Shown here: positions 1,063 through 18,353 of the stretch, one piece after another
Layout of the letters: each line of letters begins with the position of its first letter
Position numbering within the stretch: position 1 is the stretch's first letter
From: Candidatus Desantisbacteria bacterium CG1_02_49_89
GTDB taxonomy: Bacteria > Desantisbacteria > UBA1551
Length of the DNA stretch: 18,356 nucleotides
Reading direction: 5' to 3'
Assembly: GCA_001871075.1 (NCBI GenBank)
Contig: MNUP01000141.1
Coordinates: 1-18,356, forward strand
Position numbers and translations under genes: made by a program
The notes under the pieces: model-generated
Database searches by the model: none
Seen by the model: only the letters and a program-made list of their open reading frames with translations
What the model was told of the DNA's origin: nothing

Positions 1063-1083
1063 AATTATGAATTATGAATGATG
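1063..1083 (+). repeat. Heptamer array, AATTATG type, three units
   Basis: Three 7-bp units begin 4 nt after the stop codon at 1059: two identical AATTATG, then AATGATG. The same motif in inverse orientation (CATAATT type) closes the intergenic region at 1236-1263, so the two arrays face each other across a set of hairpins. Confidence 0.7.
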
Positions 1084-1119
1084 GAATTCGAAAACATTCT
1101 GTAAAACCACACGAGAATG

Positions 1120-1160
1120 TTGCCCGAAGGGCAAAGTTATGAGTCAGGGCTGAAGCCCTG
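1120..1160. repeat. Two compact hairpins (GAA loop and GA loop)
   Basis: TTGCCC-GAA-GGGCAA (1120-1134) and CAGGGCT-GA-AGCCCTG (1145-1160) are perfect inverted repeats. No T-tract follows, so they are not convincing terminators. They sit between two inverted heptamer arrays, next to an R-type hairpin repeat. Confidence 0.6.
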
Positions 1161-1165
1161 AGTTA

Positions 1166-1213
1166 TCCGCCCCGATGTCCATCGGGGCGAGACCTCGCCC
1201 CGAAGGGGCGGGC
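1166..1213. repeat. R-type double-hairpin repeat, copy 1
   Basis: Two adjacent stems joined by the conserved core GCGAGACCTCGCCC (1187-1200). Stem 1 is CGCCCCGATG / CATCGGGGCG (10 bp, loop TC). Stem 2 is CGCCCC-GAA-GGGGCG. The same core with different but still paired stems occurs at 5105-5159 and 9175-9230. Confidence 0.75.
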
Positions 1214-1235
1214 AATATATTCCTTGTAGTTGATT

Positions 1236-1263
1236 CATAACTCATAAATCATAACTCATAATT
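1236..1263. repeat. Heptamer array, CATAACT/CATAAAT type, four units
   Basis: Four consecutive 7-bp units, all starting CATAA. They end 16 nt before the ATG at 1280, immediately upstream of its GGAGG. The motif is the reverse complement of the 1063-1083 array family. Confidence 0.75.
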
Positions 1264-1279
1264 ATCATTTGGAGGAGTA

Positions 1280-1807
1280 ATGATCTCGAGCGATGAGGCG
1301 GAACTGAACGCGATAAGGCAGGTTGCGAACCTTATGTGCGCCGCCGCAAGGACCGCTCCGAAGGGCAGGGGTATTGACAACCTTGTCACCGCCATCGTTG
1401 AAGGCGAGGAAAAGAATGCCATCGCGCGGAAAATGCTTGAGCTTGCCAGGGAAAAGGATGTCCAGAGTTTTGCGAGGGACGCGGCCGGCGTCAGGTTCGC
1501 ACCGGTCCTGGTGCTCATAGGAACAAGGGCAAAACCTATGGGCCTGAAGATCTGCGGGCTGTGCGGGTTCAAGGACTGCGCGGAGCTTGAGGGAAAAGGC
1601 GGCATCTGTGTGTTCAATGCTTCTGACCTGGGTGTTGCGATCGGATCAGCGGTCTCAGTGGCTGCGCTGCACCACGTAGACAACAGGGTAATGTATACTG
1701 CCGGGATCGCGGCAATGGAAATGGAACTACTCGGTAAGGACGTGAAGATCCTATTTACCATCCCGCTTACCGCTACCGGCAAGAACCCTTTCTTTGATAG
1801 AAAATAA
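1280..1807 (+). CDS. DUF2148 ferredoxin-like domain protein
   Basis: 175 aa, matching the usual size of the DUF2148 (COG4739) family, whose function is unknown. The N-terminal half (NAIRQVANLMCAAARTAPKG, IDNLVTAIVEG) is typical, as is the central stretch RFAPVLVLIGTRAKPMGLKI. A cysteine cluster C92-x2-C95-x4-C100-x9-C110 follows and could bind an Fe-S cluster, which is why the family is called ferredoxin-domain containing. The C-terminal half is Ala/Gly-rich with a DLGVAIGSAVSVAALHHVDNR stretch like that of nitroreductase-like folds. The start is well supported by GGAGG about 5 nt upstream. No signal peptide or membrane segment; a cytoplasmic protein. No neighbour clearly shares its pathway. 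Confidence 0.88.
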   Translation: MISSDEAELNAIRQVANLMCAAARTAPKGRGIDNLVTAIVEGEEKNAIARKMLELAREKDVQSFARDAAGVRFAPVLVLIGTRAKPMGLKICGLCGFKDCAELEGKGGICVFNASDLGVAIGSAVSVAALHHVDNRVMYTAGIAAMEMELLGKDVKILFTIPLTATGKNPFFDRK

Positions 1808-2040
1808 CTACAGGGACACACAGAAATATTTTGCCACTGAAATCACTAAGCCCTCTGAGTTTTAACCTTGAAACCTTGAAACCACGGAACCTCGGAACAA
1901 ATATATTGAGACGCAGATTTTCACAGGTTTTACCATTGAGATCACTAAATGCACTGAGTATTACATTAAATCCAAAATGCGCAGAGGCCGCATAAAAGGA
2001 GGGAAAGAACAGACCTCAGAACAGAAAAAAGGAGAGGAAA
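1808..2040. repeat. Intergenic stretch with octamer array and CACTGA-type repeats
   Basis: 233 nt without a gene. 1864-1895 holds four 8-bp units (two AACCTTGA, then AACCACGG and AACCTCGG). Around it, 1830-1860 and 1930-1961 are two imperfect direct copies of a motif with CACTGA-like and GATCACTAA-like words. No strong promoter is visible ahead of the next gene. Confidence 0.6.
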
Positions 2041-2334
2041 GTGAAGAAACTATACGTTGGTAATTTTGGTTATGATACCACCGAAGAGCAGTTAAAGGAG
2101 CTGTTTGCAGCGGCAGGAACTGTTGTGAGCGCGACCATCATCAAGGATAAGCACAGTGAAAGGTCGAAAGGTTTTGGGTTTGTTGAGATGTCAACTGACG
2201 AAGAAGCGGCTAAAGCGATCGCCGATCTTAACGGGAAAGATCTGGGAGGCCGTGCTATTTCTGTTGCTGAAGCGCGTCCTATGCGTGAGCGCAGTGGCGG
2301 CGGTGGCGGTGGCGGAGGCCGGGACAGATTTTAA
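2041..2334 (+). CDS. Glycine-rich RRM RNA-binding protein
   Basis: 97 aa: one RNA-recognition motif with RNP2 LYVGNF (residues 4-9) and RNP1 KGFGFVEM (43-50), where the aromatic residues stack on RNA bases, then a short Gly-rich basic tail (residues 85-97). This is the single-RRM-plus-Gly tail layout known from cyanobacterial Rbp proteins and many other bacteria. The start is a GTG; GGAGAGG just upstream supports it and no ATG fits. The RRM begins at residue 3, so nothing is missing. The DUF362 gene follows after 21 nt, so co-transcription is likely although the functions look unrelated. Cold-shock or RNA-chaperone roles are common for the family but are not shown here. Confidence 0.93.
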   Translation: MKKLYVGNFGYDTTEEQLKELFAAAGTVVSATIIKDKHSERSKGFGFVEMSTDEEAAKAIADLNGKDLGGRAISVAEARPMRERSGGGGGGGGRDRF

Positions 2335-2355
2335 CGGATCGGATTGTAAAAAACA

Positions 2356-4215
2356 ATGAAACATAAGTGGAAGATCCCTTTCTGGATAGGCGTCGGATCG
2401 CTGGCGTGGTTCATCCTGCGTGTCGGGCCGAGGCCCGCCCGCATAATGTATCCCTGCCAGCGCGCCGCGCTTGTCCAGATGTCATGGGCTTTCCCGGCGG
2501 CTTTTATTTCAGCGCTTGCGGGCATGTGGAGCGCCGCGCTGAATTTTTTCAGAAGCAGTCGTTTCAAAAGGTTCGCAAGGGTTGCGGCGGTCTGCGCGGC
2601 TGTTGCGGCCGGGCTTCTTGTTTTTTCCGGTTCCCGGAGATTCTGGGTTAACAGCGCGCCTGTTGGCCTGAAGATGGACAGGAGCTCCGCGCGCATACTG
2701 CCGTTCGCAGTTCCGGAAAAAGGGGTATCGCTTGTCAGCTTCAGGCACGACCCTACCGCATATTACGGCAGGAAACCGCCCTACGACGAGAATTCCAATC
2801 CGGCATACGGCATTGTTTGCAGGGCTGTCGCGGACCTGGGCCTGGGCAGCACTTCCAGCCCGCTGGAAGGATTCGTAACAAGCGCGGACACGGTGCTTAT
2901 AAAACCGAACCTGCTCGGGGATAAAACCGGCATGTATACCCATCCGTCAGTGGTGCGCCCCCTTATTGATATGTGCGTGAGGGCGGGCGCGAAAGTAATA
3001 TGGGTGGGGGACGGCGGCCCGGGATATGTGGGCACAGAAGCCATCATGAGAGAGGTCGGGTACACCGACATGGTGGAAGCGCTGAAAAGCGAGTACCCCG
3101 GGGTCCGGATACGGACCGTTAACCTGCATGACCTGAGGCAATGGCATTGGGTAAACCTTGGCAGGCAGAGCATGTTCTGCAAAAGCGGTTACCGGGACGC
3201 TGACCTTGCGGATGCCATGGGTTTTTCCCTTGTGAATTCCCCCTACTACGCGAAAAAGGACCCGCAGGGCGTGAATCCCGGAGGGAAGGTGATGGGATGG
3301 TACGCGATAAGCGATTACGTGCTTGGCGCGACCGTAATAATCAACGCGGCAAAAATGAAATGCCACGATTATATGATAAACTCACTCACTATAAAAAATA
3401 ACGTGGGCGTAACTCTCGGGAGCACTGTCAGCGAAGTGGAGGTCTCAACCTGGAGGATCGCTCACTTGAAGACAAGGCCTGATTTCGAGCAGGTCCAGTT
3501 CGAAACAAACTTCGGCAACGACATATTCTGGAGGGCTATTTCCGACGTAAACAGGATAGTACTGTATGCCGACAGCTCCGGGGTCCTTAAGGTTAAAAAA
3601 CAGCGCAAATACCTTGCTTTTGTGGACGCGGTAGAGGCAAGCGAAGTAAACCAGTACGGGCTGGGCATGGGCGGGGGGACAATATACAGGGGCCAGGCTG
3701 TATTCGCCGGGACAGACCCGGTTGCTGTTGACGCGGTGGCTTCCAGGTTCATGGGTTTTGACTGCCTGAAAGTACCCGTTCTGGCAAAAGCGCCGCTTGC
3801 CCCGCCTGACAGCGGCGGGAAATACGATCTCGGGACCAATGACCCGGCCGGGATCAGGATAACAGGCAGCATAATGGGCCCGGATTTCTCGCGCGTATTT
3901 GAGCACAGCACCAACTGGCACGAATATACTGAAAGGGAAAGGCTGGACATAATAGATTTCGATCCCCCGGATGTCAGTTCTGTCGGGTCAAGCCCCCCGG
4001 GACCCGGAGGGCGCGTCAGGATCACCGCCCTTATAACCGGCGGCACCGCAGCTTACCTTTATTATGAAGTTCTGGGTAAGGGATACGTGAAGAAAATGCA
4101 GAGGCAGGGAGCAGAATATACGGCATTCATTCCGGACATCGAGTGCGATTATTCCGTCCAGGCACAGGACAATCATTTCAACACAAGGATCACCCCGTTC
4201 TACAGCCGCAGGTAA
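2356..4215 (+). CDS. Membrane-anchored DUF362 domain protein
   Basis: 619 aa. Residues 1-95 hold three hydrophobic segments (about 8-23, 43-63, 75-92) with the motif GPRPARIMYPCQRAA (24-38), an N-terminus I know from large DUF362 proteins. The DUF362 domain follows (about 123-470): DTVLIKPNLLG (179-188), AKVIWVGDGGPGYVG (212-226), NAAKMKCHDYMINSLTIKNN (330-349) and AGTDPVAVDAVASRFMGF (451-468). The C-terminal 90 residues (from about 535) look like an Ig/Fn3-type beta domain preceded by a Pro/Gly linker. Smaller DUF362 proteins often carry a ferredoxin domain; this one does not. The biochemical role of the family is not established. The ATG is 21 nt after the RRM gene with only a weak GGATCGG ahead of it, so translation may depend on coupling. 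Confidence 0.85.
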   Translation: MKHKWKIPFWIGVGSLAWFILRVGPRPARIMYPCQRAALVQMSWAFPAAFISALAGMWSAALNFFRSSRFKRFARVAAVCAAVAAGLLVFSGSRRFWVNSAPVGLKMDRSSARILPFAVPEKGVSLVSFRHDPTAYYGRKPPYDENSNPAYGIVCRAVADLGLGSTSSPLEGFVTSADTVLIKPNLLGDKTGMYTHPSVVRPLIDMCVRAGAKVIWVGDGGPGYVGTEAIMREVGYTDMVEALKSEYPGVRIRTVNLHDLRQWHWVNLGRQSMFCKSGYRDADLADAMGFSLVNSPYYAKKDPQGVNPGGKVMGWYAISDYVLGATVIINAAKMKCHDYMINSLTIKNNVGVTLGSTVSEVEVSTWRIAHLKTRPDFEQVQFETNFGNDIFWRAISDVNRIVLYADSSGVLKVKKQRKYLAFVDAVEASEVNQYGLGMGGGTIYRGQAVFAGTDPVAVDAVASRFMGFDCLKVPVLAKAPLAPPDSGGKYDLGTNDPAGIRITGSIMGPDFSRVFEHSTNWHEYTERERLDIIDFDPPDVSSVGSSPPGPGGRVRITALITGGTAAYLYYEVLGKGYVKKMQRQGAEYTAFIPDIECDYSVQAQDNHFNTRITPFYSRR

Positions 4216-4442
4216 ACCCGCCTTAAGAATTACCACGGAGGCACAGAGACACAGAGAAATATTTGGCTTTTTCAAATGACAAAAGACTACCTTTGCAGCC
4301 ACGAATTTGCACGGATTTCCACGAATTAAACCGGCGAAACCGGCATAACTATCCAAACTTATTTTTCAATTTGTTCCGAATGAATCCCTTTGGGGCATTT
4401 TGATTTTTGACTTATTTTCTTTAAACCTTTTAAGGCAATAAT
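4216..4442. repeat. Intergenic stretch with decamer array and ACACAGAG-type repeat
   Basis: No gene. 4232-4260 is a CCACGG/ACACAGAG-type repeat, and 4300-4329 holds three 10-bp units of the CACGAATTTG/CACGGATTTC type, the reverse complement of the AATCCGTGCA units at 9873-9902 and 10781-10800. The remaining 110 nt are AT-rich. TTGACT at 4407-4412 lacks a good -10 at the right distance, so I do not call a promoter. Confidence 0.6.
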
Positions 4443-4518
4443 ATGTCTAAATTATAGAGAGGAAGATCTCGAATTCATCAGAAGGTTCAGGGATGGAGAA
4501 GGGCCTGCCTTTGATGCG

Positions 4519-4992
4519 TTGGTGCGCAAATACCAGAAAAAGGTTTACTATTTTGCCTTCCGCCTTGCCCGCAACCACCAGGATGCAGACGACCTTGCCC
4601 AGGAAACCTTCATAAGGACCTATAATTCCCTTGGCGCTTTTAAGGGAGGTTCCGCCTTTTTCACGTGGCTGTACAGAATAACAATAAATCTTTATATAAA
4701 TTCATACAGGAAAAAAATAAGGCAGAACCAGATCCTTGCCGGAGAAACCGAGTTCACCTACCAGGGCCTGGACGCCCTCTCAATGGTGCAGGACAAGGAA
4801 CTTGGGAAAAAAATAGGCGCCGCGGCAGCAAAACTGCCGCCGCGCCAGCAGGTTGCCTTTAACCTGAGATACATAGAGGAGCTGACGTTTGAGGAAGTAG
4901 CCGAATCAATGGGTTGCTCGGTCGGGGCGGCGAAGGCAAGCTGTTTCCAGGCAGTCCGCAAAATGCGCGGATATTTAAAATCAGAAAGATAG
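4519..4992 (+). CDS. ECF sigma-70 family RNA polymerase sigma factor (5' end probably frameshifted)
   Basis: 157 aa from the TTG at 4519, the only usual start codon in frame. Region 2 (YYFAFRLARNHQDADDLAQE, FFTWLYRITINLYINSYRKK) binds core polymerase and the -10; region 4 (LPPRQQVAFNLRYIEELTFE then EVAESMGCSVGAAKA) is the -35 helix-turn-helix. The same frame upstream still reads as sigma factor (EEDLEFIRRFRDGEGPAFDA) back to about 4459, but has no ATG, GTG or TTG before the stop at 4408. An ATG at 4443 with AAGG 7 nt upstream reads M-S-K-L and hits TAG at 4455-4457. Dropping one base there gives a continuous 182-aa protein starting MSKLREEDLEF. So the true gene is probably 4443-4992 with a 1-nt insertion, real or from assembly. 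The anti-sigma gene lies 364 nt downstream. Confidence 0.88.
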   Translation: MVRKYQKKVYYFAFRLARNHQDADDLAQETFIRTYNSLGAFKGGSAFFTWLYRITINLYINSYRKKIRQNQILAGETEFTYQGLDALSMVQDKELGKKIGAAAAKLPPRQQVAFNLRYIEELTFEEVAESMGCSVGAAKASCFQAVRKMRGYLKSER

Positions 4993-5010
4993 CCACGGAA
5001 GCCCCTTGCT

Positions 5011-5078
5011 GCTCCGATAAATACCGGAGCAATACGCAGGGACCTTCGGGTCAGAGCTGAGTCGATGACCCTACGGCA
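5011..5078. repeat. S-type hairpin repeat, copy 1
   Basis: A variable hairpin GCTCCG / CGGAGC (5011-5030) is followed by the conserved block ACGCAGGGACCTTCGGGTCA, five variable bases later GT, then ATGACCCTACGGCA. Within the block, GACC-TTCG-GGTC forms a UUCG-loop hairpin, while GGGTCA (5048-5053) can instead pair with TGACCC (5066-5071). Copy 2 lies at 17817-17883. Confidence 0.7.
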
Positions 5079-5104
5079 CGGAAGGACGGAGGCACGGAGA
5101 TACA

Positions 5105-5159
5105 GTCCGCCCGTCTTTCAGCGGGCGAGACCTCGCCCCGATAGACATCGGGGCGGGAG
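5105..5159. repeat. R-type double-hairpin repeat, copy 2
   Basis: Begins GTCCGCCCGTCTTTCAG, then the core GCGAGACCTCGCCC and ends GGGCGGGAG. Stem 2 is CGCCCCGAT-AGAC-ATCGGGGCG (9 bp). Its outer parts match copy 3 (9175-9230) almost base for base, while the stem interior differs but stays paired. Confidence 0.75.
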
Positions 5160-5206
5160 ACTACCTTATAAATTTTTGGTTTCTCTTACAGAACCTATGT
5201 CGGTAA

Positions 5207-5227
5207 ACTTGATACTTGACACTTGTT
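5207..5227. repeat. Heptamer array, ACTTGAT type, three units
   Basis: Three 7-bp units beginning ACTTG and ending AT, AC and TT in that order. The ACTGG-type array at 8499-8526 has the same order of endings. Confidence 0.65.
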
Positions 5228-5290
5228 GCCCCTGCGGTCACCACTCCGGCGACCTGCCGTAGGGGCATGGCAACCCGCCGTTGAGGCGGG
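5226..5290. repeat. S-related nested hairpin plus CCCGCC hairpin
   Basis: A nested stem built from CCCCT (5229-5233) with AGGGG (5261-5265) contains CTGCCGTAGGG, the reverse complement of the CCCTACGG end of S-type repeats. A second hairpin CCCGCC-GTTGA-GGCGGG follows at 5274-5290. No T-tract follows. Confidence 0.55.
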
Positions 5291-5308
5291 ACTCTTGATA
5301 CTGAAAAT

Positions 5309-5343
5309 AATCACCGTAATCTCTTTAAGAAATCACTGTAATC
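5309..5343. repeat. AATCACTGTAATC-type array, two units, 22-bp period
   Basis: AATCACCGTAATC (5309-5321) and AATCACTGTAATC (5331-5343), 22 bp apart. The second ends 13 nt before the ATG at 5357. The identical 13-mer occurs at 16348-16360, 12 nt before the GH4 start. Confidence 0.65.
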
Positions 5344-5356
5344 AAACAGGAAAAAG

Positions 5357-6629: not shown

Positions 6630-6992
6630 ATGAAAAGAATAATTTTCACACCATTGCTGATATTCCTTATAATGACGACATCAGGTTTTTTAATGACCGG
6701 GGCGCAGGAGCAGGCCGCGGAGGATTTCAGCCCGGACATTGAAAGCGAACAGGATGCAGAGTTCCTGGAGAGCCTTGACCTGCTGGGAGACGCGGAGCTG
6801 CTGGAAATGCTCATCTCAGACCCCGGGTTCATGGAAGTTTTTGAGGAATTCAGCGAGGACATAGGCATAGGCGAGGAAGAAGTTCCTTTTGACCTCCTCG
6901 GGGAAGCTGGCGCGTTCTCGAAAGCGCAGGAGCTGGGAGGGGACAAAAAGGCTGTTGAAGAAATGGAGAGAGAGCAGGGAGGTGGCAGGTGA
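6630..6992 (+). CDS. Small acidic exported protein of unknown function
   Basis: 120 aa, not recognised. A signal peptide is clear (MKRIIFTPLLIFLIMTTSGF, cleavage near residue 25). The mature part is strikingly acidic and rich in Leu and Phe (SLDLLGDAELLEML, FMEVFEEFSEDIG, GEEEVPFDLLGE), suggesting short amphipathic helices. GGGGGAAG precedes the ATG. Its last codons overlap the GTG start of the FecR-domain gene by 4 nt (GTGA), so the two are translationally coupled. The next protein carries a very basic repeat domain, so a charge-based partnership is possible but not shown. Confidence 0.75.
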   Translation: MKRIIFTPLLIFLIMTTSGFLMTGAQEQAAEDFSPDIESEQDAEFLESLDLLGDAELLEMLISDPGFMEVFEEFSEDIGIGEEEVPFDLLGEAGAFSKAQELGGDKKAVEEMEREQGGGR

Positions 6993-8383
6993 GAAACACA
7001 GCGAGGATCCTATCGGCCGGCATCGCCTGCTTTTTATTCTTGGCCGCCCTGCAGCCCGCGCTTGGCAGTGAAAGGCTGACAAAGCTTATTTATATCGAGG
7101 GGATCGTTGAGGTGCAGAAACCCGGCGCCAGGTTTGCGAAGGCTGAGCTGGACATGCAGCTGGGCAAAGGCGATGTGCTGCGGACCGGCAGCGGTTCGAT
7201 AGCGGAGCTTGAGCTGGATGACGGCAGCTTCGTGAAGATCGGAGAAGAAAGCACGATCGGCATACTTGCGCTTGAAGAAGTGGGGCCGGGGAAAGACAGG
7301 GTATCCCTGTTCAAGCTTATACTGGGGGAGATAAAGGCGACTATACAGAAAGCGCTGGGCAGGCAGGCGAGTTTTGAGGTTCAGACCGCGGCTTGCATAG
7401 CCGGAGTGCGCGGGACGGATTTCACGGTGACCGCGGAGGGCGATGAGGCAGCTGACGTGGAAGTCCTTGAAGGCAGCGTAGCAGTGGAAGGGCTGGGGGA
7501 AAAAGGCGAGCGCGGCGCGCTGTCCGAAGTGAAGGCGGGGCAGAGCACGCGGGTTGAAAAGGGAAAGCCCCCGATGGCCGTACAGAAGATTGAAGCGTAC
7601 CGCAGGGCAAGGTGGGAGCTTTTCGCGAAAAAGAAAAAAATATTCAACTCCGCGAAGGAGCTTGAAAAGGCAAAAATAGCTGCCGATTTCCTCAGGGTAA
7701 AATACGCGCAGGCTGAAGGCGAAAGCCGAAAGGCCCTGCTGAAACAGGCGGAAGGCCTGAAGAAAGCGGTGGTTAAAACCGCGCTTGAAATGGAAAAGGC
7801 AAACAAAGATTTCATCAAAGACAAAGAAAAGCTTGACAGGGAGACCGCGAAGGCCGTTGCTGACTGGAAAAGACTGCCGCCCGAGAAACGGGCCAAGGCA
7901 AGGATGAATTACGAGATATGGAAGAGCACCGCCCCGCAGCCCGCCTTTGCGCGCAGGGACAGGATGAAGGAGATCCTTGAAAACTGGAAGGACACGCCTC
8001 CACAGGTGAAAGCCGTGATCATCCGCGCGCACAAGGCGTGGAACAGCCTTAAGCCCGAACTGAAAAAGGCAATAATCCTGAAAGTGAGGCAGTTCAGCCA
8101 GCTTCCGCCCTGGGTCAAGAAAAAGATCGTTGACAACTGCCGCAGGTGGAAAGGCCTTCAGCCCGAGGTAAAAAAGAGGATGGTGGAGAACTACGGGAAA
8201 TGGAAAAAACTTCCCCCTGAAAAGAGGGAGGATATAAAGGACAGGATCGAGGATTTCAAGAACCTTCCTCCGGAAAAGAAGCTCCGGATATTAAAATTGC
8301 ACAAGATGTGGCAGAAGGTTCCGCCCAAGATGCGCATGGAATGGATGAAGAAGCATGCTGGCAAACCCCCAAAAAGAAGTTGA
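6989..8383 (+). CDS. Exported FecR-domain protein with nine 18-residue W-x-x-L-P-P repeats
   Basis: 464 aa. Signal peptide (1-26, cleavage ALG-S), then a FecR domain (about 32-190): IYIEGIVEVQKPG, LGKGDVLRTGSGSIAEL, DDGSFVKIGEESTI and TAACIAGVRGTDFTV, a beta-sandwich often tied to ECF sigma signalling or cell-surface structures. A charged coiled-coil-like stretch (about 205-290) follows. Residues 293-458 are nine repeats starting at W293, W311, W333, W351, F369, W387, W405, F423 and W441: eight steps, seven of exactly 18 residues and one of 22. The pattern (W-K-x-L-P-P-E-x-K/R then basic helix) recalls DUF3106, a family also met near ECF sigma genes. Start GTG overlaps the previous stop; GGGAGGTG lies upstream. 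The stop codon lies inside a heptamer array (8379-8413). Confidence 0.85.
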   Translation: MRNTARILSAGIACFLFLAALQPALGSERLTKLIYIEGIVEVQKPGARFAKAELDMQLGKGDVLRTGSGSIAELELDDGSFVKIGEESTIGILALEEVGPGKDRVSLFKLILGEIKATIQKALGRQASFEVQTAACIAGVRGTDFTVTAEGDEAADVEVLEGSVAVEGLGEKGERGALSEVKAGQSTRVEKGKPPMAVQKIEAYRRARWELFAKKKKIFNSAKELEKAKIAADFLRVKYAQAEGESRKALLKQAEGLKKAVVKTALEMEKANKDFIKDKEKLDRETAKAVADWKRLPPEKRAKARMNYEIWKSTAPQPAFARRDRMKEILENWKDTPPQVKAVIIRAHKAWNSLKPELKKAIILKVRQFSQLPPWVKKKIVDNCRRWKGLQPEVKKRMVENYGKWKKLPPEKREDIKDRIEDFKNLPPEKKLRILKLHKMWQKVPPKMRMEWMKKHAGKPPKRS

Positions 8384-8413
8384 AAGTTAAAGGTTGAAGG
8401 TTGAAAGTTGAAA
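8379..8413 (+). repeat. Heptamer array, GTTGAAA type, five units
   Basis: Five consecutive 7-bp units of GTTGAAA or close variants (GTTAAAG, GTTGAAG). The first unit contains the TGA (8381-8383) that ends the FecR-domain gene. Arrays of the same type and the same length (35 bp) occur at 9838-9872 and, inverted, at 17930-17964. Confidence 0.8.
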
Positions 8414-8498
8414 GATTTCCACGAAATCACGAAAGTACCACGAAGACACGAAAAATTCCTTGGACCTCGGAACCTTTAATCCTCGGGACCAGTTTTAA

Positions 8499-8526
8499 AC
8501 TGGATACTGGACACTGGTTACTGGAT
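8499..8526. repeat. Heptamer array, ACTGGAT type, four units
   Basis: Four 7-bp units starting ACTGG with endings AT, AC, TT, AT, then a degenerate fifth. It lies in the 208-nt gap before the His-Pro repeat gene, together with ACGAAATC-type repeats (about 8415-8455) and a CCTCGGAACC word. Confidence 0.75.
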
Positions 8527-8534
8527 ACTATTTC

Positions 8535-8566
8535 GGCGATGCACGACCCGCAAGGGCGATGCACGA
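8535..8566. repeat. 20-bp-spaced direct repeat GGCGATGCACGA
   Basis: GGCGATGCACGA occurs at 8535-8546 and 8555-8566. The second copy ends 26 nt before the start of the His-Pro repeat gene and creates an upstream in-frame ATG that I do not take as the start. Confidence 0.6.
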
Positions 8567-9174: not shown

Positions 9175-9230
9175 GTCCGCCCATCTTTCAGCGAGCGAGA
9201 CCTCGCCCAATTTGTAAAATTGGGCGGGAG
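9175..9230. repeat. R-type double-hairpin repeat, copy 3
   Basis: Begins GTCCGCCCATCTTTCAG, then the core GCGAGACCTCGCCC; stem 2 is CGCCCAATTT-GTA-AAATTGGGCG (10 bp). Its first stem has a mismatch. It falls in the predicted 5' leader of the LiaF-like gene. Confidence 0.75.
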
Positions 9231-9833: not shown

Positions 9834-9837
9834 CGCA

Positions 9838-9872
9838 GTTAAAAGTTGAAAGTTGAACGTTGAAAGTTAAAA
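9838..9872 (+). repeat. Heptamer array, GTTGAAA type, five units
   Basis: Five 7-bp units (three GTTGAA-type flanked by GTTAAAA on both sides), starting 4 nt after the LiaF-like stop codon. The decamer array at 9873-9902 follows without a gap. Confidence 0.8.
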
Positions 9873-10734: not shown

Positions 10735-10859
10735 AATTAGTTTATAGAGTTTACAAAGTCTATAAGTTTATATAGTTTAAAATCCGTGGAAATCCGTGGC
10801 TTATTTACTTGACCCCTGCTGGGGTCTTCGTCTCTGAGTTTGAATGTGGGGTTTTTTCC

Positions 10860-10913: not shown

Positions 10914-10948
10914 CATAGCATATGGCACATCGCTTATCGCTAATCGTC
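10914..10948. repeat. Heptamer array, TATCGCT type, five units
   Basis: Five 7-bp units (CATCGCT, TATCGCT and variants), ending 14 nt before the degP ATG and so inside its mRNA leader. Read on the other strand the units (GATTAGC, GATAAGC) match those of the array at 18319-18353. Confidence 0.7.
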
Positions 10949-10962: not shown

Positions 10963-12399
10963 ATGCTTAGGCATAGGAAATTTCTGCCAATTCTTTTCTT
11001 GATTTTTTGTTTTTCCATTACACGTTACACGTTACACGTTACACGAATCTGCTCCGCAGCCGACGCCAACGTGCTCAGCGACCTGCAGGACTCGTTCGCG
11101 CGCATAGCTGAATCCGCAAAACCTGCCGTAGTGAACATTTCCTCAACCAGGATCGAAAGAACGCAGCTGTATTCCTACAGGAGCCCTTTCGGGGAAGAAG
11201 ACCCTTTTGACGAATTTTTCAGGCATTTCTTCGGTCCGGAATACGGAACAAGGAAGCAGCAGAGCATCGGCTCCGGGGTCATAATTGACAAAAGAGGTTA
11301 TGTGCTCACCAACTACCACGTTGTTGAAAGGGCAAGCGACATACAGGTCGCGCTGGGGGACGGAAGGAACAAGAAGTCGTATCCCGGCAAGATAGTCGGA
11401 AAGGATTCCCGCACAGACCTCGCTGTTATCAAGATAGAGCCAAAAAAGAACGAAGATTTCCCCACGGTGCCGCTGGGAGATTCGGACAAAATAAGGATCG
11501 GTGACTGGGCGGTCGCGCTGGGAAGCCCTTTCGGCCTGGAGCACACGCTTACGGTCGGGGTCATAAGCGCGAAACGCCAGAATGTTACGATCCAGAACAA
11601 CACGTATGAGGACCTGATACAGACCGACGCTTCCATAAATCCGGGAAACAGCGGCGGACCGCTCCTCAACCTTAAGGGCAAGGTCATCGGGATAAACACC
11701 GCGATCGTTTCCCCGAGCGGCGGCTTTGTGGGTGTCGGGTTCGCGATACCGATAAACAAGGCAAAGGAAATACTGGAAGACCTTATAGAAAAAGGAAAAG
11801 TGACCAGGGGCTACCTGGGGGTCAAAACCCAGGATATTACGGACGAACTTGTAAGATCCTTCGGGCTTCCGGGCATTGAAGGAGCGCTTGTAAGCGAGGT
11901 GATCCAGGGAGAAGCCGCGGAAAAAGCGGGCGTGAAGCGCGGGGATGTCATTGTGCAGGCCGGAGACAAACCGATCCAGAATTCAAACGACCTGAGATCC
12001 GCCATAGGAAGGACGCAGCCCGGGAAGAAAATAACTCTTAAAATAATCCGCAGCAAGAAAGAGATCGCGGTAGAAGCAGCGCTGGGAAAAGCGCCGGAAG
12101 AGGAAGGCGAGGCTGCTGCCAGGGAAGAGGCAAAGGAAGAGCGTATCGGCATAACCGTGAAGAACTCAAAAGTCCAATTGGATCCCTTGGGGAAAAGCGT
12201 GGTAGTGTCAAAGGTCGAGCCTGGCAGTTCCGCCCAGGACGCGGGCATCGCTGAAGGCGACATCATAAAGGAAGTCAATAATAAAGAAATAAAAGATGTT
12301 TCGGATTTTGAAAGCGGGATGAAGGACGCAAAAGACACGGTACTCCTGCTCATCAAGCGCGGGACTTCGATGCTGTACGTGGCGGTCGAATTGAAATAA
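10963..12399 (+). CDS. degP: DegP/HtrA-family periplasmic serine protease
   Basis: 478 aa. Trypsin-like domain with the triad His119 (TNYHVV), Asp152 (SRTDLAV) and Ser230 (NPGNSGGPLL), then PDZ1 (about 283-375: RGYLGV, AGVKRGDVIVQAGDKPI), an acidic Glu/Ala linker (376-393) and PDZ2 (about 394-478: AGIAEGDIIKEVNNKEI). It degrades or refolds damaged envelope proteins. The N-terminus has a hydrophobic core (FLPILFLIFCFSI), but the region before the likely cleavage site (CSA-ADA) is encoded by four perfect copies of the heptamer TTACACG (11018-11045), giving an odd TRYTLHVTR stretch. AAGGA upstream supports the ATG at 10963. It has its own promoter. Envelope genes lie on both sides. Confidence 0.95.
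   Translation: MLRHRKFLPILFLIFCFSITRYTLHVTRICSAADANVLSDLQDSFARIAESAKPAVVNISSTRIERTQLYSYRSPFGEEDPFDEFFRHFFGPEYGTRKQQSIGSGVIIDKRGYVLTNYHVVERASDIQVALGDGRNKKSYPGKIVGKDSRTDLAVIKIEPKKNEDFPTVPLGDSDKIRIGDWAVALGSPFGLEHTLTVGVISAKRQNVTIQNNTYEDLIQTDASINPGNSGGPLLNLKGKVIGINTAIVSPSGGFVGVGFAIPINKAKEILEDLIEKGKVTRGYLGVKTQDITDELVRSFGLPGIEGALVSEVIQGEAAEKAGVKRGDVIVQAGDKPIQNSNDLRSAIGRTQPGKKITLKIIRSKKEIAVEAALGKAPEEEGEAAAREEAKEERIGITVKNSKVQLDPLGKSVVVSKVEPGSSAQDAGIAEGDIIKEVNNKEIKDVSDFESGMKDAKDTVLLLIKRGTSMLYVAVELK
11018..11045 (+). repeat. Intragenic heptamer array TTACACG, four perfect units
   Basis: Four identical 7-bp units inside the degP signal-peptide region (codons 19-28). As 7 is not a multiple of 3, gain or loss of one unit would shift the frame after about 28 codons. 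Confidence 0.9.
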
Positions 12400-12401: not shown

Positions 12402-12483
12402 GTCGTAAGTCGTACGTCGATCGTTGAATTAGAAAATTTTTTTACGTACGACCCGCTAGGGAGACGTATGACGTACGACTGAT
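12402..12483. repeat. Facing GTCGTAC-type heptamer arrays with 11-bp perfect inverted repeat
   Basis: Left array 12402-12429, four units (GTCGTAA, GTCGTAC and variants). Right array 12463-12483, three units in inverse orientation (GACGTAT, GACGTAC and a variant). AGTCGTACGTC (12408-12418) is the exact reverse complement of 12470-12480. A T-run at 12437-12443 lies inside the loop, so this is not a standard terminator. Confidence 0.7.
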
Positions 12484-13676: not shown

Positions 13677-13682
13677 TAATCT

Positions 13683-13769: not shown

Positions 13770-13789
13770 ATTTGTGAGTGGAGGAACAA

Positions 13790-14923
13790 ATGAAAAAGTA
13801 CCTGTTAACGCCGGGGCCGACGCCGGTCCCGCCTGAAGCCGCTTCAAAAGAAGGGCTGCCAATTATCCACCACCGCACCTCAGCTTTCGGAAAAATATTC
13901 GAGGAGGTGTCGGAAGGCCTTAAATACGTTTTCCAGATGAAAAACAACGTTCTTATTTTCGCGTCATCCGGCACAGGGGTGATGGAATCAGCTATTACCA
14001 ACCTGCTTTCCCCGGGAGACAAGCTTATAGTAAGCGAAACAGGCAAATTCGGCGAACGCTGGTGGAAGATCGCGAAAGCCTACGGGCTTGATGCTGTTGT
14101 CGTAAAGGAAGAGGCGGGAGCGCCCGCGGATATAGGAAAAATAAAAAAGGCGCTTGCGGAAAACCCGCAGGCGAAGGCCGTTTATACAACCCTCACAGAG
14201 ACTTCAACAGGCGTGGTAAACGATATAAAGTCGCTTGGTGAGATCGTTTCAAAGACCGGGGCGGCACTGGTAGTGGATGCCATAAGCGGGCTCGGGGCGC
14301 AGGAACTGCGCTCGGACGACTGGAAAGTTGACGTGGTCGTGACCGGTTCGCAGAAAGGGCTGATGATACCGCCCGGCCTCGGGTTTGCCAGCGTGAGCGA
14401 AAAAGCATGGAAACTTGTTGAGCAGGCGAAATTGCCGAAATTTTATTTCAGCTGGCAGGCCGCGAAAAAATCGATCGCGACCAAAGAAACTCCGTATACC
14501 CCGGCAATAAGCCTGATCGTAGCGCTTGCCGAAAGCCTGAAGATCATCAGGGCGGAAGGCGTGGAAAATATCTGGAAAAGGCACCAGCAGCTTGCGGATG
14601 CGACAAGGGCCGGAGTTGCGGCGATCGGCCTGAAGCTCTTCAGTTCCGCTCCCTGCAACGCGGTGACAGCAGTGCACGTGCCGCAGGGGATAGCGGGAAG
14701 CGCAATTTATAAAAAGATGAGGGATGAATTCGGCGTGAACATCGCCGCGGGCCAGGGCGAGGACCTGAAAGACAAGATAATCCGCATCGCGCACCTGGGT
14801 TACATGGAAAGGTTCGACATAATAATCGCGCTTTCAGCCCTTGAAATGGCGCTTACCCAGCTCGGGTATAAGCTTGAGCCGGGAGCGGCTGTGGCCGCCG
14901 CGGAGAAAATTTTTTTAGGGTAG
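13790..14923 (+). CDS. Class V PLP-dependent aminotransferase (serine-pyruvate / alanine-glyoxylate type)
   Basis: 377 aa, the usual length. Landmarks of the family: LLTPGPTPVPPEA at the N-terminus, IIHHRTSAF (25-33), ASSGTGVMESAITNLLSPGD (58-77), VVDAISGLGA with Asp163 contacting the PLP nitrogen, and VTGSQKGLMIPPG with Lys189 as the Schiff-base lysine. It swaps the amino group between Ser or Ala and glyoxylate or pyruvate; in several bacteria and archaea such enzymes serve in serine metabolism. The ATG at 13790 follows GGAGG at a good distance; an in-frame GTG at 13778 lies before that site. No serA or glycolate gene is in the window, so the pathway cannot be settled. The stop is followed by a CGCAGGC-type hairpin. 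Confidence 0.92.
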   Translation: MKKYLLTPGPTPVPPEAASKEGLPIIHHRTSAFGKIFEEVSEGLKYVFQMKNNVLIFASSGTGVMESAITNLLSPGDKLIVSETGKFGERWWKIAKAYGLDAVVVKEEAGAPADIGKIKKALAENPQAKAVYTTLTETSTGVVNDIKSLGEIVSKTGAALVVDAISGLGAQELRSDDWKVDVVVTGSQKGLMIPPGLGFASVSEKAWKLVEQAKLPKFYFSWQAAKKSIATKETPYTPAISLIVALAESLKIIRAEGVENIWKRHQQLADATRAGVAAIGLKLFSSAPCNAVTAVHVPQGIAGSAIYKKMRDEFGVNIAAGQGEDLKDKIIRIAHLGYMERFDIIIALSALEMALTQLGYKLEPGAAVAAAEKIFLG

Positions 14924-14924
14924 C

Positions 14925-14942
14925 CGCAGGCTTCAGCCTGCG
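14925..14942. repeat. CGCAGGCT hairpin after the aminotransferase gene
   Basis: CGCAGGCT-TC-AGCCTGCG is a perfect inverted repeat 1 nt after the stop codon. Only TTACTAT follows, so at best a weak terminator; it resembles the GGCTGAAGCC hairpin at 1145-1160. Confidence 0.6.
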
Positions 14943-14999
14943 TTACTATCGCGATCGTATTTATACAACCAACTCTGGGGAATTTATGCGTTCAGCTTA

Positions 15000-15142
15000 T
15001 TATTTCCTCTCCCCTTGCGGGAGAGGATTGAAGGTGAGGGGAAACAAGGGCGCTGATCTGCCGATAAGGCAGTGCGGCGCCTTCTTATTTATGAAAAGCC
15101 CTGAACTATTCCCCCGATGCAAGATCGGGGTCAAGTTCAGGG
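15000..15142. repeat. Widespread-type palindromic repeats before the FG-GAP gene
   Basis: 15007-15043 holds a CTCTCCCCTTGCGGGAGAGG hairpin with a following GGTGAGGGG, a form met in many bacterial genomes. 15099-15142 is a longer hairpin: outer stem CCCTGAACT / AGTTCAGGG, inner stem CCCCGAT / ATCGGGG. The latter ends 16 nt before the FG-GAP start, so it could affect its translation. No promoter is evident. Confidence 0.65.
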
Positions 15143-15158
15143 TAAAAAGGATAAACCA

Positions 15159-16238
15159 ATGGTTAAATTCAAAAAGACTTTGCTTGACAAGGTTGCGTTC
15201 GAGGCGGCATCGGTTTTTGACGTCAATAACGACGGGAAGCCGGACATTGTGTGCGGCGGGAACTGGTACGAGGCGCCAGGCTGGAAGAAGCATAAGATAT
15301 GCGACGTAATGCCCTCGGGCGAATACTTCGACGATTTCTCGGATATCCCCATGGACGTCAACGGCGACGGGTTCCTTGACATCGTGACAGGCGGGTGGTT
15401 CGGCCAGGCCATGTACTGGAGGGAAAACCCGAAGGGCAAGCCCGTGGAGTGGGCTGTCCGCGAGATAGACAAGTGCGGGAACATTGAAACAACAAGGCCC
15501 TTTGACATAGATAAAGACGGAACGCAGGAAATTATCCCGAATACTCCGGGCGCTCCGCAGATCGTATACAAGCTTATTGTTGAAAAGAACGGGAAGGGCT
15601 CGGGCAGGTTCGAGAAGTTCACGCTCATGGACAGGCCAAGCGGCCACGGGCTGGGGTTTGGGGACATAAACGGGGACGGCAGGCCGGATATAGTTCTTTC
15701 CGGGGGATGGCTTGAAAACCCACCGGAAGGCCTTAGGGGGAAATGGACGTTCCACGAGGAATTCAACCTGGGTTCAGCAAGCGTCCCGGTATTGGTATAT
15801 GACGTGAACGGGGACGGCCTTGCTGACCTGATAGTGGGCCAGGCGCACGGCATAGGGCTTTACTGGTACGAGCAGAGGATGTACCAGAACGGGAAAAAGC
15901 GCTGCTGGATCATGCACGAGATAGACACGACCCTTTCACAGTTTCACGACATGCAGATGGCCGACATAGATAATGACGGAAAGCCTGAGCTTATAACCGG
16001 CACAAGGTACCGCGCTCACTGCGGCAACGATCCCGGCGAGGATACCGACATAGTTGGGTTATATTACTTCAAGATCAGCAAAGGCAGGTTTGAAAAGAAC
16101 GTGATAGACTACGGCAAGGTGCCGGGCGCAAGCGGCACAGGCATTTATTTCGCTGTTGCCGACATAAACGGGGACGGCAGGCCTGACATCATCGCGCCGG
16201 GCAAAGAAGGGCTTTTCCTTTTTGAAAACCTTGGTTAA
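15159..16238 (+). CDS. FG-GAP/VCBS-type repeat protein, seven Asp-rich motifs, no signal peptide
   Basis: 359 aa from the ATG at 15159, chosen because AAAAGGAT lies 8 nt upstream; a longer reading from 15117 would start inside a hairpin repeat. Seven Ca-binding-type loops D-x-N/D-x-D-G-x-x-D/E begin at residues 21, 66, 116, 169, 215, 269 and 335 (for example DVNGDGFLDIV, DINGDGRPDIV), each followed by Gly-Gly-Trp or similar, as expected for a seven-bladed beta-propeller. Such proteins are usually exported; here the N-terminus (MVKFKKTLLDKVAFEAASV) is not a signal peptide. Trp-Tyr and Trp-Phe pairs between blades could form a binding face for carbohydrate, but this is speculation prompted by the GH4 gene downstream. 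Confidence 0.85.
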   Translation: MVKFKKTLLDKVAFEAASVFDVNNDGKPDIVCGGNWYEAPGWKKHKICDVMPSGEYFDDFSDIPMDVNGDGFLDIVTGGWFGQAMYWRENPKGKPVEWAVREIDKCGNIETTRPFDIDKDGTQEIIPNTPGAPQIVYKLIVEKNGKGSGRFEKFTLMDRPSGHGLGFGDINGDGRPDIVLSGGWLENPPEGLRGKWTFHEEFNLGSASVPVLVYDVNGDGLADLIVGQAHGIGLYWYEQRMYQNGKKRCWIMHEIDTTLSQFHDMQMADIDNDGKPELITGTRYRAHCGNDPGEDTDIVGLYYFKISKGRFEKNVIDYGKVPGASGTGIYFAVADINGDGRPDIIAPGKEGLFLFENLG

Positions 16239-16242
16239 AGAT

Positions 16243-16360
16243 GATTACGGTGATTTTACAAGATGATTACAGTGATTATTGAAATATTCTGGTATTAACA
16301 AATACTGATTTTGGCTGTTTTTAAATAATCACTGAAATCTTAGTTGAAATCACTGTAATC
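16243..16360. repeat. Facing GATTACAGTGATT-type arrays with 13-bp perfect inverted repeat
   Basis: Two units at 16243 and 16265 (22-bp period) face two units at 16327 and 16348 (21-bp period). GATTACAGTGATT (16265-16277) is the exact reverse complement of 16348-16360, which lies 12 nt before the GH4 start. The 134-nt gap contains little else. Confidence 0.7.
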
Positions 16361-16372
16361 AGAGGAGAAGAA

Positions 16373-17791
16373 ATGGCTCGTATTGCTATGATCGGGGCGG
16401 GAAGCATAGTTTTCTGCAAGACCCTTATGATGGACATAATGGCGACAGAAGGCCTGGAAGGCAGCACTTTCGCGCTTATGAACCGCACAAAGCCAAAGCT
16501 TGACCAGATGGAAAAGTTCGCGAACCGCGTTGTAAAGGAAAACAAGCTGCCCGCAAAGATCGAGGCGGCCCTTGACAGGCGCGAGGCGCTCAAGGGAGCT
16601 GATTATGTGATCAACATGATCCAGGTGGGCGGGGTTGACGCGTTCGGCATGGATTACGAGATACCCATGAAATACGGGGTGGACCAGTGCATAGGGGACA
16701 CGATGGGGCCCGGCGGCATATTCAGGACGCTCAGGACTGTTCCGGTTGTGAACAGCATAGCCCGGGACATGGAAGAACTCTGCCCTAACGCGTTCCTCCT
16801 TAACTATACAAACCCGATGGCTATGGTATGCTGGGGGCTGGGGGAAGCGACAAAAGTAAGGTTCGTGGGCCTGTGCCACGGCGTGCAGACAACCCTGGAC
16901 CTTATCGCCCGGTACTGCGGGGTTAATGACAAAAAAGACATAGATTACCTCTGCGCGGGCATAAACCATATGGACTGGTTCCTGAAACTCGAGAAGGACG
17001 GCAAAGATCTTTATCCTATCCTGAAAAAAAATATCGAAAAGCCGGAGTACTACATAAATGAAAAGGTGCGCTGCGAGGTAATGAGGCACCTTGGTTATTT
17101 TATGACCGAGAGCACGGGCCACCTTTCAGAGTACCTTCCGTGGTTCCGCAAGAACAAGAAGGCGCTGGACCTGTACTGCGACCAGCCCAGCTTCGGCGGG
17201 GAAACAGGGGCGTATTACAAATGGTGCAAGAGGATAGCGGAAAAATTCAAAGAGATCGATTACCTTGAAGAAGAGTCGCCGAAACTGAAAAAGAGAAGCA
17301 GCGAATACTGCTCCTATATAATCGAGGCGATGGAGACGAACAAGGTGTTCAAATTCATGGGCAATGTAAGGAACGAGAACCTGATAACGAACCTTCCCAA
17401 CGGCTCATGCGTGGAAGTGCCTGTTTTCGCTGACAGGTCCGGTTTTTACGCAACCCGCGTGGGAGACCTGCCGCCCCAGTGCGCTGCGGCGAACATGCTC
17501 AATATTATTCCGCAGGGCCTTGCGGTGAAGGCGGCGCTTACAGGGGATTTTGAGCTTGCAATAGCCGCCGTGCAGACCGACCCGCTTACCTCAGCGGTCC
17601 TGACAATGAAGGAAGCAAGGGATATGGCTGTTGAAATGTACAAGGCGGAGAAACAATACCTGCCGCAGTTTGACGAGAAGGACGTGCGCAGGGTCTCCGA
17701 GATAAAGATCCCGAAGGGTACGAAAGGCGTGGACGTGCCGCTTGACCCGGCGCTTGCGATAGTGCACAGGTTCGGCGAGCTGGCAAAGTAA
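16373..17791 (+). CDS. Glycoside hydrolase family 4 enzyme (alpha-galactosidase/MelA-like)
   Basis: 472 aa, normal for GH4. The N-terminal Rossmann motif (RIAMIGAGSIVF, residues 3-14) binds NAD, which GH4 enzymes need because they work by oxidation at C3 and elimination rather than by classical hydrolysis. LLNYTNPMAM (142-151), GLCHGVQ with Cys168, and AGINHMDW with His199 form the Mn-binding and substrate site. The Cys-His form resembles MelA/AglA-type alpha-galactosidases and alpha-glucosidases rather than phospho-glycosidases, but GH4 specificity cannot be read safely from sequence alone. GAGGAG precedes the ATG. Cytoplasmic, no signal peptide. No sugar transporter lies in the window; the FG-GAP protein is upstream. 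Confidence 0.92.
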   Translation: MARIAMIGAGSIVFCKTLMMDIMATEGLEGSTFALMNRTKPKLDQMEKFANRVVKENKLPAKIEAALDRREALKGADYVINMIQVGGVDAFGMDYEIPMKYGVDQCIGDTMGPGGIFRTLRTVPVVNSIARDMEELCPNAFLLNYTNPMAMVCWGLGEATKVRFVGLCHGVQTTLDLIARYCGVNDKKDIDYLCAGINHMDWFLKLEKDGKDLYPILKKNIEKPEYYINEKVRCEVMRHLGYFMTESTGHLSEYLPWFRKNKKALDLYCDQPSFGGETGAYYKWCKRIAEKFKEIDYLEEESPKLKKRSSEYCSYIIEAMETNKVFKFMGNVRNENLITNLPNGSCVEVPVFADRSGFYATRVGDLPPQCAAANMLNIIPQGLAVKAALTGDFELAIAAVQTDPLTSAVLTMKEARDMAVEMYKAEKQYLPQFDEKDVRRVSEIKIPKGTKGVDVPLDPALAIVHRFGELAK

Positions 17792-17816
17792 CTTTAACCA
17801 CGGATTTCTTCCTGCA

Positions 17817-17883
17817 GTCCGATGTAACATCGGACTCAACGCAGGGACCTTCGGGTCAGAACCAAGTTAATGACCCTACGGCA
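17817..17883. repeat. S-type hairpin repeat, copy 2
   Basis: Hairpin GTCCGATG-TAA-CATCGGAC (17817-17835), then the conserved block ACGCAGGGACCTTCGGGTCA (17839-17858) and ATGACCCTACGGCA (17870-17883). It matches copy 1 except in the first hairpin, whose bases differ but pair, and in the short linker. Confidence 0.7.
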
Positions 17884-17929
17884 GAGATCAGCACAGATTA
17901 TTCTACATTAGGTTTTTAGTATCCAGTAT

Positions 17930-17964
17930 ATTTAACTTTTAACTTTCAACGTTCAACTTTAAAC
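17930..17964 (-). repeat. Heptamer array, TTTCAAC (GTTGAAA inverse) type, five units
   Basis: Five 7-bp units ending in AAC (TTTCAAC, GTTCAAC and variants), the reverse-complement form of the arrays at 8379-8413 and 9838-9872 and again exactly five units long. Confidence 0.8.
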
Positions 17965-18063
17965 CGTGAAGCCTTCTTTGGGATTTTGGCTGAACACACG
18001 GCAAGCGATTGCATAGTAAGCGCGCTTACCGGAAGTTAAAATTATGGAAAAATATATAAATAC

Positions 18064-18106
18064 TTGACAATTATGCATATTTATATATTATATATATCAT
18101 ATACAA
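18064..18106 (+). promoter_or_regulatory. Promoter-like block resembling the degP promoter
   Basis: TTGACA (18064-18069) is followed by ATATTTATATA, then TATTAT-like hexamers 14-16 nt downstream and CATATACAA. The same words in the same order occur at 10860-10905 upstream of degP. Any target gene would lie beyond the right edge. Confidence 0.45.
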
Positions 18107-18119
18107 TAAACAGGTCAGA

Positions 18120-18309
18120 CATCTAGCATCCAGCATCTAGTGTGGTGTCACATAAATCCCTTGACATTTGATTCTGCTTTGAGTTGTCATTGCGAGCGAC
18201 CAAAGGGAGCGTGGCAATCTCGATTTTTAGGTCGAGATTGCTTCGTCGTTAACACTCCTCGCAAAGCCCAAATGTAAAGATCTGTTAGAGACACCACACT
18301 AGCATCAAG
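18120..18309. repeat. Heptamer array, CATCTAG type, split by an inserted element
   Basis: Units CATCTAG, CATCCAG, CATCTAG lie at 18120-18140 and the next unit, CATCAAG, at 18303-18309. The DNA between is the MITE-like element plus one duplicated CTAG. Confidence 0.75.
18141..18298. mobile_element. MITE-like element, 158 bp, with inverted ends and CTAG on both flanks
   Basis: Ends TGTGGTGTC / GACACCACA are perfect inverted repeats, and similarity continues inward for about 40 bp with a few indels (ACATTTG and GCTTTG shared). CTAG stands on both sides (18137-18140, 18299-18302). The centre carries a 10-bp hairpin GCAATCTCGA / TCGAGATTGC (18214-18241) within a TTGCGAG...GCAATCTC type sequence known as a widespread bacterial repeat. 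No transposase is encoded, so it would move only with help. CTAG fits either a 4-bp duplication (IS5-like YTAR) or a TA duplication inside CTAG (IS630/Tc1-mariner-like). Confidence 0.8.
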
Positions 18310-18318
18310 ATCTTTAAA

Positions 18319-18353
18319 CGATAAGCGATTAGCGATATGCGATAAGCGAGATT
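18319..18353. repeat. Heptamer array, CGATAAG type, five units
   Basis: Five 7-bp units (CGATAAG, CGATTAG, CGATATG, CGATAAG and a degenerate one) reaching the right edge. The same words occur inverted in the degP leader at 10914-10948. Confidence 0.75.

Follow-up and report, generated by a model that had tools for sequence, protein, structure and literature searches.

The intergenic DNA of Candidatus Desantisbacteria bacterium CG1_02_49_89 was found to be rich in short tandem arrays, about 30 bp long and built of 7- to 10-bp units. Only a limited number of unit families is represented, each in many copies, and on balance the arrays probably constitute a lineage-specific population of tiny, nonautonomous insertion elements with many unit families. 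The window, meaning the whole stretch of 18,356 nucleotides analysed here (MNUP01000141.1, contig C67), is one of 150 contigs of the 2.48-Mb draft genome. It was examined together with a genome sample of 101 contig pieces (1.36 Mb, 55% of the genome), for which simple gene calling gave 1083 genes and a coding fraction of 82%. An initial annotation of the window had described 13 intergenic stretches with an exact 7-bp period and attributed them to a generating mechanism or length selection rather than to the spread of one repeat.

Arrays were called by self-match at a fixed lag with a match score of at least 11, and dinucleotide-preserving shuffles of 239 kb of intergenic DNA served as the null. 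Intergenic arrays in the sampled genome numbered 279 at period 7, 86 at period 8, 63 at period 9, and 51 at period 10, against 0.0, 0.7, 0.7, and 0.3 expected from the shuffles, and only 5 to 7 were found at each of periods 6 and 11 to 13. The comparison of the period-7 signal with shuffled DNA had been set in advance, and the signal was upheld. The annotated constancy of period was borne out, but the same kind of array also occurred at periods 8, 9, and 10. Across all sampled DNA, there were 386 heptamer arrays and 112, 76, and 51 arrays at periods 8, 9, and 10. Heptamer arrays had a median length of 30 bp (interquartile range, 26 to 31 bp) and a mode of 31 bp (72/386), with 90% falling within 21 to 38 bp and four units being commonest; a second preset test, of narrow against broad lengths, therefore also favored the annotation. 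The narrow length class was real, whereas the proposed 35 bp reflected how the array ends had been drawn. Median lengths at periods 8, 9, and 10 were 31, 32, and 28 bp, so that total length was similar regardless of the unit. Of the 676 intergenic regions at least 100 bp long, 362 (54%) held one or more arrays. The 386 heptamer arrays reduced to 90 canonical units, a few of them dominant and the dominant ones without G runs, in agreement with the claim that unit classes are many and that no one repeat underlies them.

The same unit families recurred between genes and inside genes. Arrays were mostly intergenic, as had been stated, but 110 of 618 array loci lay wholly within predicted open reading frames (ORFs), including the window array at 11018 to 11045. 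Heptamer and octamer arrays lying 60 bp or more within a gene numbered 73 (53 and 20, respectively). A unit of an intergenic family was used by 36 of the 53 and 13 of the 20, where random coding k-mers would lead one to expect 2.9 and 0.2. Perfect arrays were commoner in genes (40% of heptamer and 50% of octamer arrays) than between them (7% and 13%). Many genic arrays were in frame in housekeeping genes, among them those for LeuRS, RibD, TsaD, ThiL, MiaB, a XerD-like recombinase, and a V-ATPase-like subunit, and across genes the array-encoded segments coincided with 4 to 29 residues missing in homologues. The best PDB homologue had fewer residues at the array-encoded stretch by about 7 in LeuRS, 4 in RibD, 8 in TsaD, 5 in ThiL, and 6 in MiaB.

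The nearest comparison genome (G001, here called the sister-order genome) shares only the order, and the remaining genomes compared share only the domain. Relative to the sister-order proteins, the V-ATPase-like subunit (73% identical) was longer by about 25 residues, of which a GTGTCAAC array supplied 11, and the XerD-like recombinase (59% identical) was longer by about 29, contributed by two arrays and a hairpin. Loops of this kind, including those compared with PDB proteins, differ naturally in length, which leaves the exact size of the inserts uncertain; that the same tandem words stand in them is certain. NadD-like and LepA-like genes carried arrays where the sister or other homologues lacked residues. 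In the NadD-like gene (L099:2420-3079), a REP-like (repetitive extragenic palindrome-like) hairpin, CGCCCCGAAGTACGTCGGGGCG..., and an AGATCGC array stood together in frame. The N terminus of the window's Deg protease, whose sister-order homologue is 69% identical, was longer than in that homologue and added the array-encoded ITRYTLHVTR.

Local replication slippage, in which local sequence is turned into 7-bp tandem repeats by the polymerase (the footprint hypothesis for bacterial heptamer repeats, quoted in PMC4692102), would agree with the overrepresentation of heptamers among bacterial simple repeats (PMC4692102), with the near-identical copies L050 and L092 that differ by exactly one 7-bp unit, and with the one to four units found before the same core. 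Slippage does not explain why genic arrays reuse intergenic units, and distant arrays shared units, with 48 same-unit pairs among the 53 genic heptamer arrays against 1.6 expected. Arrays also had conserved neighbors and inverted partners, their length was capped near 31 bp without a broad spread, and octamers, nonamers, and decamers formed families of their own. Furthermore, the phenomenon was missing from the sister-order genome, a 183-kb sample of which held one period-7 array (0.5 versus 28.2 heptamer arrays per 100 kb). As the origin of the arrays, slippage was rejected on the sharing of units between genic and intergenic arrays, and it is considered improbable. The annotated interpretation was supported in part: no single repeat had spread, but units were not made afresh at each site. 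Instead, a limited set of families recurred between and inside genes, two tested ones also sporadically in unrelated lineages, so that many repeat families have spread.

Most positions of a family's unit were near-invariant, and about two were free. Over 140 units of the octamer GTRTCARC, departures numbered 0 or 1 at five positions, 13 at one, and 49 and 44 at the two R positions; in heptamers, some five positions were fixed and two varied. Other consensus units were the nonamer AAACTNTRT, the decamer NAATYCGTGN, and heptamers including ARTKATG and NTCGTKC, and the counts for the seeds ACTTGAC, CAACTGA, and CATGACA mix families since some seeds pull in related units. As detection was indifferent to unit position, uniform decay would give even departures across positions, but departures were uneven in every family tested (chi-square P ≤ 1.1e-8). 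One arm alignment was left out of the conservation claims because its search pattern fixes those positions, and a reversed-pattern control was disregarded as invalid for a near-symmetric unit. Fast change at the variable positions was rejected, since near-identical copies retained their letters (L060 and L029/L058), as was self-palindromy of the unit as a cause, which showed no excess over shuffled units.

The nearest same-family partner of 294 strong intergenic heptamer arrays was inverted in 105 cases (about a third), direct in 48, and ambiguous in 29, with none within 150 bp in 112. Elements of the AATTATG family shared the core TCAANNRCAWGG...TTTAAA...CCTTG, and the GCAAGG core is shared by the octamer family. 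In 14 two-armed AATTATG elements, one arm was typically AATTATG AATTATG AATGATG AATTATG and the other tended to AATTATG AGTTATG AATTATG AGTTATG, in either orientation. Agreement between the arms at variable positions was 0.476, against 0.638 (standard deviation, 0.039) for randomly re-paired arms, which marks the 14 as copies of a single ~100-bp element whose two ends are unlike. Variation in the AATTATG family is thus inherited in part as a difference between the two element ends. Selected hairpin pairing between the arms was rejected, as they agreed below chance at those positions. The ~100-bp form had inverted array arms at its ends, and solo arrays lacked terminal inverted repeats.

Some pairs with a TTTAAA-like center joined arms of different families (L016:7221-7283 and L106:2504-2595). 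Such pairs would be explained by templated synthesis, in which a telomerase-like enzyme carrying a short internal template extends broken ends with repeats, ~30-bp arrays remain once the ends are joined, and an inverted pair results from the tail-to-tail joining of two ends that have both been extended. The same scheme would account for the narrow length, for the large number of unit families, and for insertion at any kind of site, coding sequence included. It has a low probability, because element cores and edges were conserved beyond the repeat, favoring whole-element copying; a reverse transcriptase or Ku route was rejected, with only a fragmentary reverse transcriptase match and no Ku in the assembly. 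Still more doubtful is a bacterial enzyme that makes arrays from a set of 7- to 10-nucleotide templates and inserts them chromosome-wide, including into genes, comparable to interstitial telomere-like repeats; were this so, a like machine would also have made the scattered heptamer repeats known from Xanthomonas, Nostoc, and Beggiatoaceae.

Modules were stacked in varying order through A/T-rich joints, with or without a further module between them. The GTTRAAN array at 9837 to 9872 of the window and the 10-mer module directly after it, for example, recurred at L054 with an extra heptamer module between them, and at L060, 130 bp including an array were identical with different flanks. The joining of modules in differing orders, together with the 48% of intergenic bases that matched another intergenic site, could reflect old repeats exchanging sequence through homologous recombination and gene conversion, which would shuffle modules without active insertion. 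There is little likelihood of this, as recombination does not bring arrays into the unique coding sequence of single-copy genes. At L074:3997-4208, a unit of ~57 to 60 bp with a CGTGTAA array was itself tandemly repeated several times. Tiny hairpins (TCCCTTCGGGA, GCCCCTTGGGGC, and CCCGCAAGGG) were seen in the middle of a heptamer arm at L106:4500-4606, at L079:1287, and at 8548 to 8560 in the window.

The window contained the following features, with arrays also checked by Tandem Repeats Finder (score of at least 30) and by lag-7 match counts.

1063 to 1088, plus strand: AATTATG-family outer arm of an inverted element continuing to 1263, same family as the ~100-bp palindromic elements.
1235 to 1263, minus strand: AATTATG-family arm of TCATAAC units, partner of 1063 to 1088, preceded by core motif TTCCTTGTAGTTGA.
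4234 to 4259, plus strand: octamer module, three CACRGAGN units and GAAA (exact pattern match, G000:C67:4234-4259).
4299 to 4327, plus strand: 10-mer-type module CCACGAATTT (Tandem Repeats Finder).
5207 to 5225, plus strand: short ACTTGAY heptamer array (Tandem Repeats Finder, lag-7).
8377 to 8414, plus strand: GTTRAAN heptamer array directly behind, and overlapping, the stop of ORF 6989 to 8383.
8499 to 8529, plus strand: ACTGGAY heptamer array, joined to the preceding module by CCAGTTTTAAACTGG.
9837 to 9872, plus strand: GTTRAAN heptamer array, then 10-mer module AAATCCGTGC AAATCAGTGG CAATCTGTG.
10739 to 10799, plus strand: 9-mer module of AGTTTATA/AGTTTACAN type, then 10-mer module of two AAATCCGTGG units.
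10926 to 10948, plus strand: ATCGCTT-family array, the sole clearly periodic part (second half) of 10914 to 10948.
10963 to 12399, plus strand: array-bearing gene for a Deg/HtrA-type protease with trypsin and PDZ domains.
11018 to 11045, plus strand: four exact TTACACG units, in frame where the Deg-type protease gene encodes its signal-peptide region.
12402 to 12425, minus strand: CGTACGA-family arm of GTCGTAC units.
12445 to 12481, plus strand: CGTACGA-family arm with CCGCTAGGG inside, inverted partner of 12402 to 12425.
17931 to 17964, minus strand: GTTRAAN-family array, reversed.
18120 to 18140, plus strand: AGCATCY heptamer array, split by an insert resembling a miniature inverted-repeat transposable element (MITE) and resuming at 18300 to 18307.
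18315 to 18353, minus strand: ATCGCTT-family array, reversed.

Lag-7 self-similarity was confirmed at all 13 annotated stretches, but the period was exact only at 11018 to 11045 (21/21 matches); the others ranged from 24/28 down to 19/28 (10914 to 10948) and 10/14 (12463 to 12483). Tandem Repeats Finder reported period-7 arrays at nine stretches, starting at 1063, 1235, 5207, 8377, 8499, 9837, 11018, 17934, and 18315. The window arrays were otherwise typical of the genome. Not all of the stretches were independent arrays, since those at 1063 and 1236 and those at 12402 and 12463 are paired arms of inverted elements. The 151-bp center between the arms at 1063 to 1088 and 1235 to 1263 was made up of REP-like hairpin blocks. 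REP-like hairpin families (CCGCCC..GGGCGAGACCTCGCCC, TCAGGGCTGAAGCCCTGA, and GGACCTTCGGGTCAGA) occupied much of the remaining intergenic DNA, in the window at 1119 to 1217, 5102 to 5160, 5225 to 5292, 9177 to 9230, and 17828 to 17885. The MITE-like element within the AGCATCY array (18138 to 18301) had a terminal inverted repeat (TAGTGTGGTGTC...GACACCACACTA) with CTAG on both sides, contained the palindrome TGTCATTGCGAGCGA...AATCTC, and had near-identical copies at other contig ends (L099, L104, and L027).

Between tandem gene pairs, 23% of arrays began no more than 10 bp past the stop of the upstream gene, where random placement would give 9%, and 8% overlapped that stop. They ended 10 to 20 bp before the next start in 16% (random, 9%), and the last 10 bp were avoided. 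Such positions agree with insertions being tolerated where space is tight; a function at the ends of genes agrees with them less well. Array orientation matched that of the genes in 249 cases and opposed it in 194. Neighboring genes were themselves co-oriented far above the usual level, with strand switches in 31 of 982 pairs as judged by a simple gene caller on a fragmented assembly, and 65 of 82 contigs with at least five genes were single-stranded. The positional biases, together with the near-fixed unit positions, would also be expected of selected sequence-specific DNA or RNA binding sites, such as the sites for a posttranscriptional regulator proposed for TAACTGA in Beggiatoaceae (PMC4679880). 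This explanation seems unlikely, given dozens of unit families in one genome, an orientation not fixed relative to genes, in-frame copies in protein loops unlike a regulon, and the share of AATTATG variation that is an inherited end difference.

Searches of other genomes gave no AATTATG and no CACRGAG pattern matches in the sister-order genome, compared with 103 and 54 in this one. Both patterns were sporadic in unrelated genomes, AATTATG in 7 others of 290 searched and CACRGAG in 9 others of 192. The AATTATG matches in two of these (G185 and G052) had the same variant units, and loci of other lineages (L163, L127, L185, and L191) carried heptamer arrays with free positions of a like style. 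The sporadic matches may reflect either horizontal spread or like causes.

Taken together, unit sharing, conserved neighbors, unlike-ended inverted pairs, the length cap, lineage restriction, and occurrence in unique coding DNA favor dispersal of preformed elements over slippage. The body of such an insertion element would be the ~30-bp array itself, typically four units plus three bases for heptamers and three to four units for longer periods. Elements would occur solo, stacked via A/T-rich joints, or as inverted pairs around the palindromic core TCAANNRCAWGG...TTTAAA..., the last forming a MITE-like unit of ~100 bp. New copies would land between genes, mostly just past a stop codon or just before the ribosome-binding region, and would also enter genes, where the survivors seen would be those that are stop-free, keep the frame, and lie at loop positions. 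Spread would presumably be by copying and insertion, with a trans-acting factor reading the array.

Several observations weigh against such elements. The sampled genome held 10 matches to Y1 transposase/RAYT (REP-associated tyrosine transposase) genes, but no heptamer arrays lay beside the Y1 match at the five loci inspected, and a RAYT/Y1 transposase was rejected as the mobilizer. No large lineage-specific gene family stood out in the 55% of the genome sampled. Solo 30-bp inserts without terminal inverted repeats would be unusual for transposition, and no target-site duplication was recognized by eye in the copies inspected. The varying number of units before the same core indicates that unit gain and loss act too. 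Finally, because the sister shares only the order, insertion rests on protein comparison rather than on an empty site in a close strain; a search for empty sites between repeat copies showed modules present or absent between others, with no clean duplication. Among the motifs in the Y1/RAYT flanks were GACCTGACCCCAG and CCCGTCCCC, and CCCCGCGGCTTGCCGCGGGG hairpins stood at the ends of an IS200-like copy.

Heptamer repeats have so far been noted singly in unrelated bacteria and usually ascribed to slippage or regulation. With many families in one genome, insertion can be tested directly against slippage, and the genic copies, of shared families and in frame in loops of essential enzymes, form an insertion record. 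Conserved proteins also gain new peptide segments from the arrays. Common rules to seek elsewhere are a length of about 30 bp, a 7- to 10-bp unit, about two free positions, and inverted pairs.

Among known systems, MITEs and REP/RAYT elements are likewise small, noncoding, and dispersed, and resemble the ~100-bp palindromic pair form, but here no target duplication was recognized and no partner enzyme was found, only Y1/RAYT genes having been checked. Rickettsia palindromic elements are single palindromes of about 100 to 150 bp that lack tandem 7-mers; in this genome, arrays would also insert on their own. The likeness to them, by description rather than sequence, lies in small palindromic repeats tolerated in frame in ORFs, of which one example has been given (PMC5656822). 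The annotated likeness to heptamer repeats of other bacteria was apt: the short tandemly repeated repetitive (STRR) sequences of cyanobacteria and the TAACTGA repeats of Beggiatoaceae, cyanobacteria, and Bacteroidetes (PMC4679880) are also dispersed intergenic heptamer arrays, sporadic across lineages. Those systems have one or few units per genome and some very long arrays, with Nostoc GGGGAYT reaching 26 units and TAACTGA up to 43 copies (PMC4679880, PMC4692102), in contrast to the dozens of units and the cap near 31 bp found here. Cyanobacterial STRR sequences, moreover, are heptamers only, unlike the 90 canonical heptamer units plus periods 8 to 10 of this genome.

Among the open-licence papers searched, the closest published case is the GGGAATC/GGGANTN heptamer of Xanthomonas, which, judged by its layout, has the same architecture; earlier accounts of in-frame heptamer arrays may exist beyond them. 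In that repeat, positions 1 to 4 and 6 are conserved, four units are commonest, and X. campestris pv. campestris has 70 cases of close inverted pairs among 186 repeats; the repeats are mostly intergenic, close behind the upstream ORF, with 7 to 11% intragenic (PMC4692102). Quadruplex potential is central to that study. Shared with the arrays described here are the five fixed and two variable positions, the four units, the close inverted pairs, and the mostly intergenic location. Where Xanthomonas has a single G-rich family, this genome has many that are not G-rich, the dominant units offering no quadruplex capacity, and it further differs in its periods of 7 to 10, its shared palindromic cores, and its in-frame arrays in housekeeping proteins.

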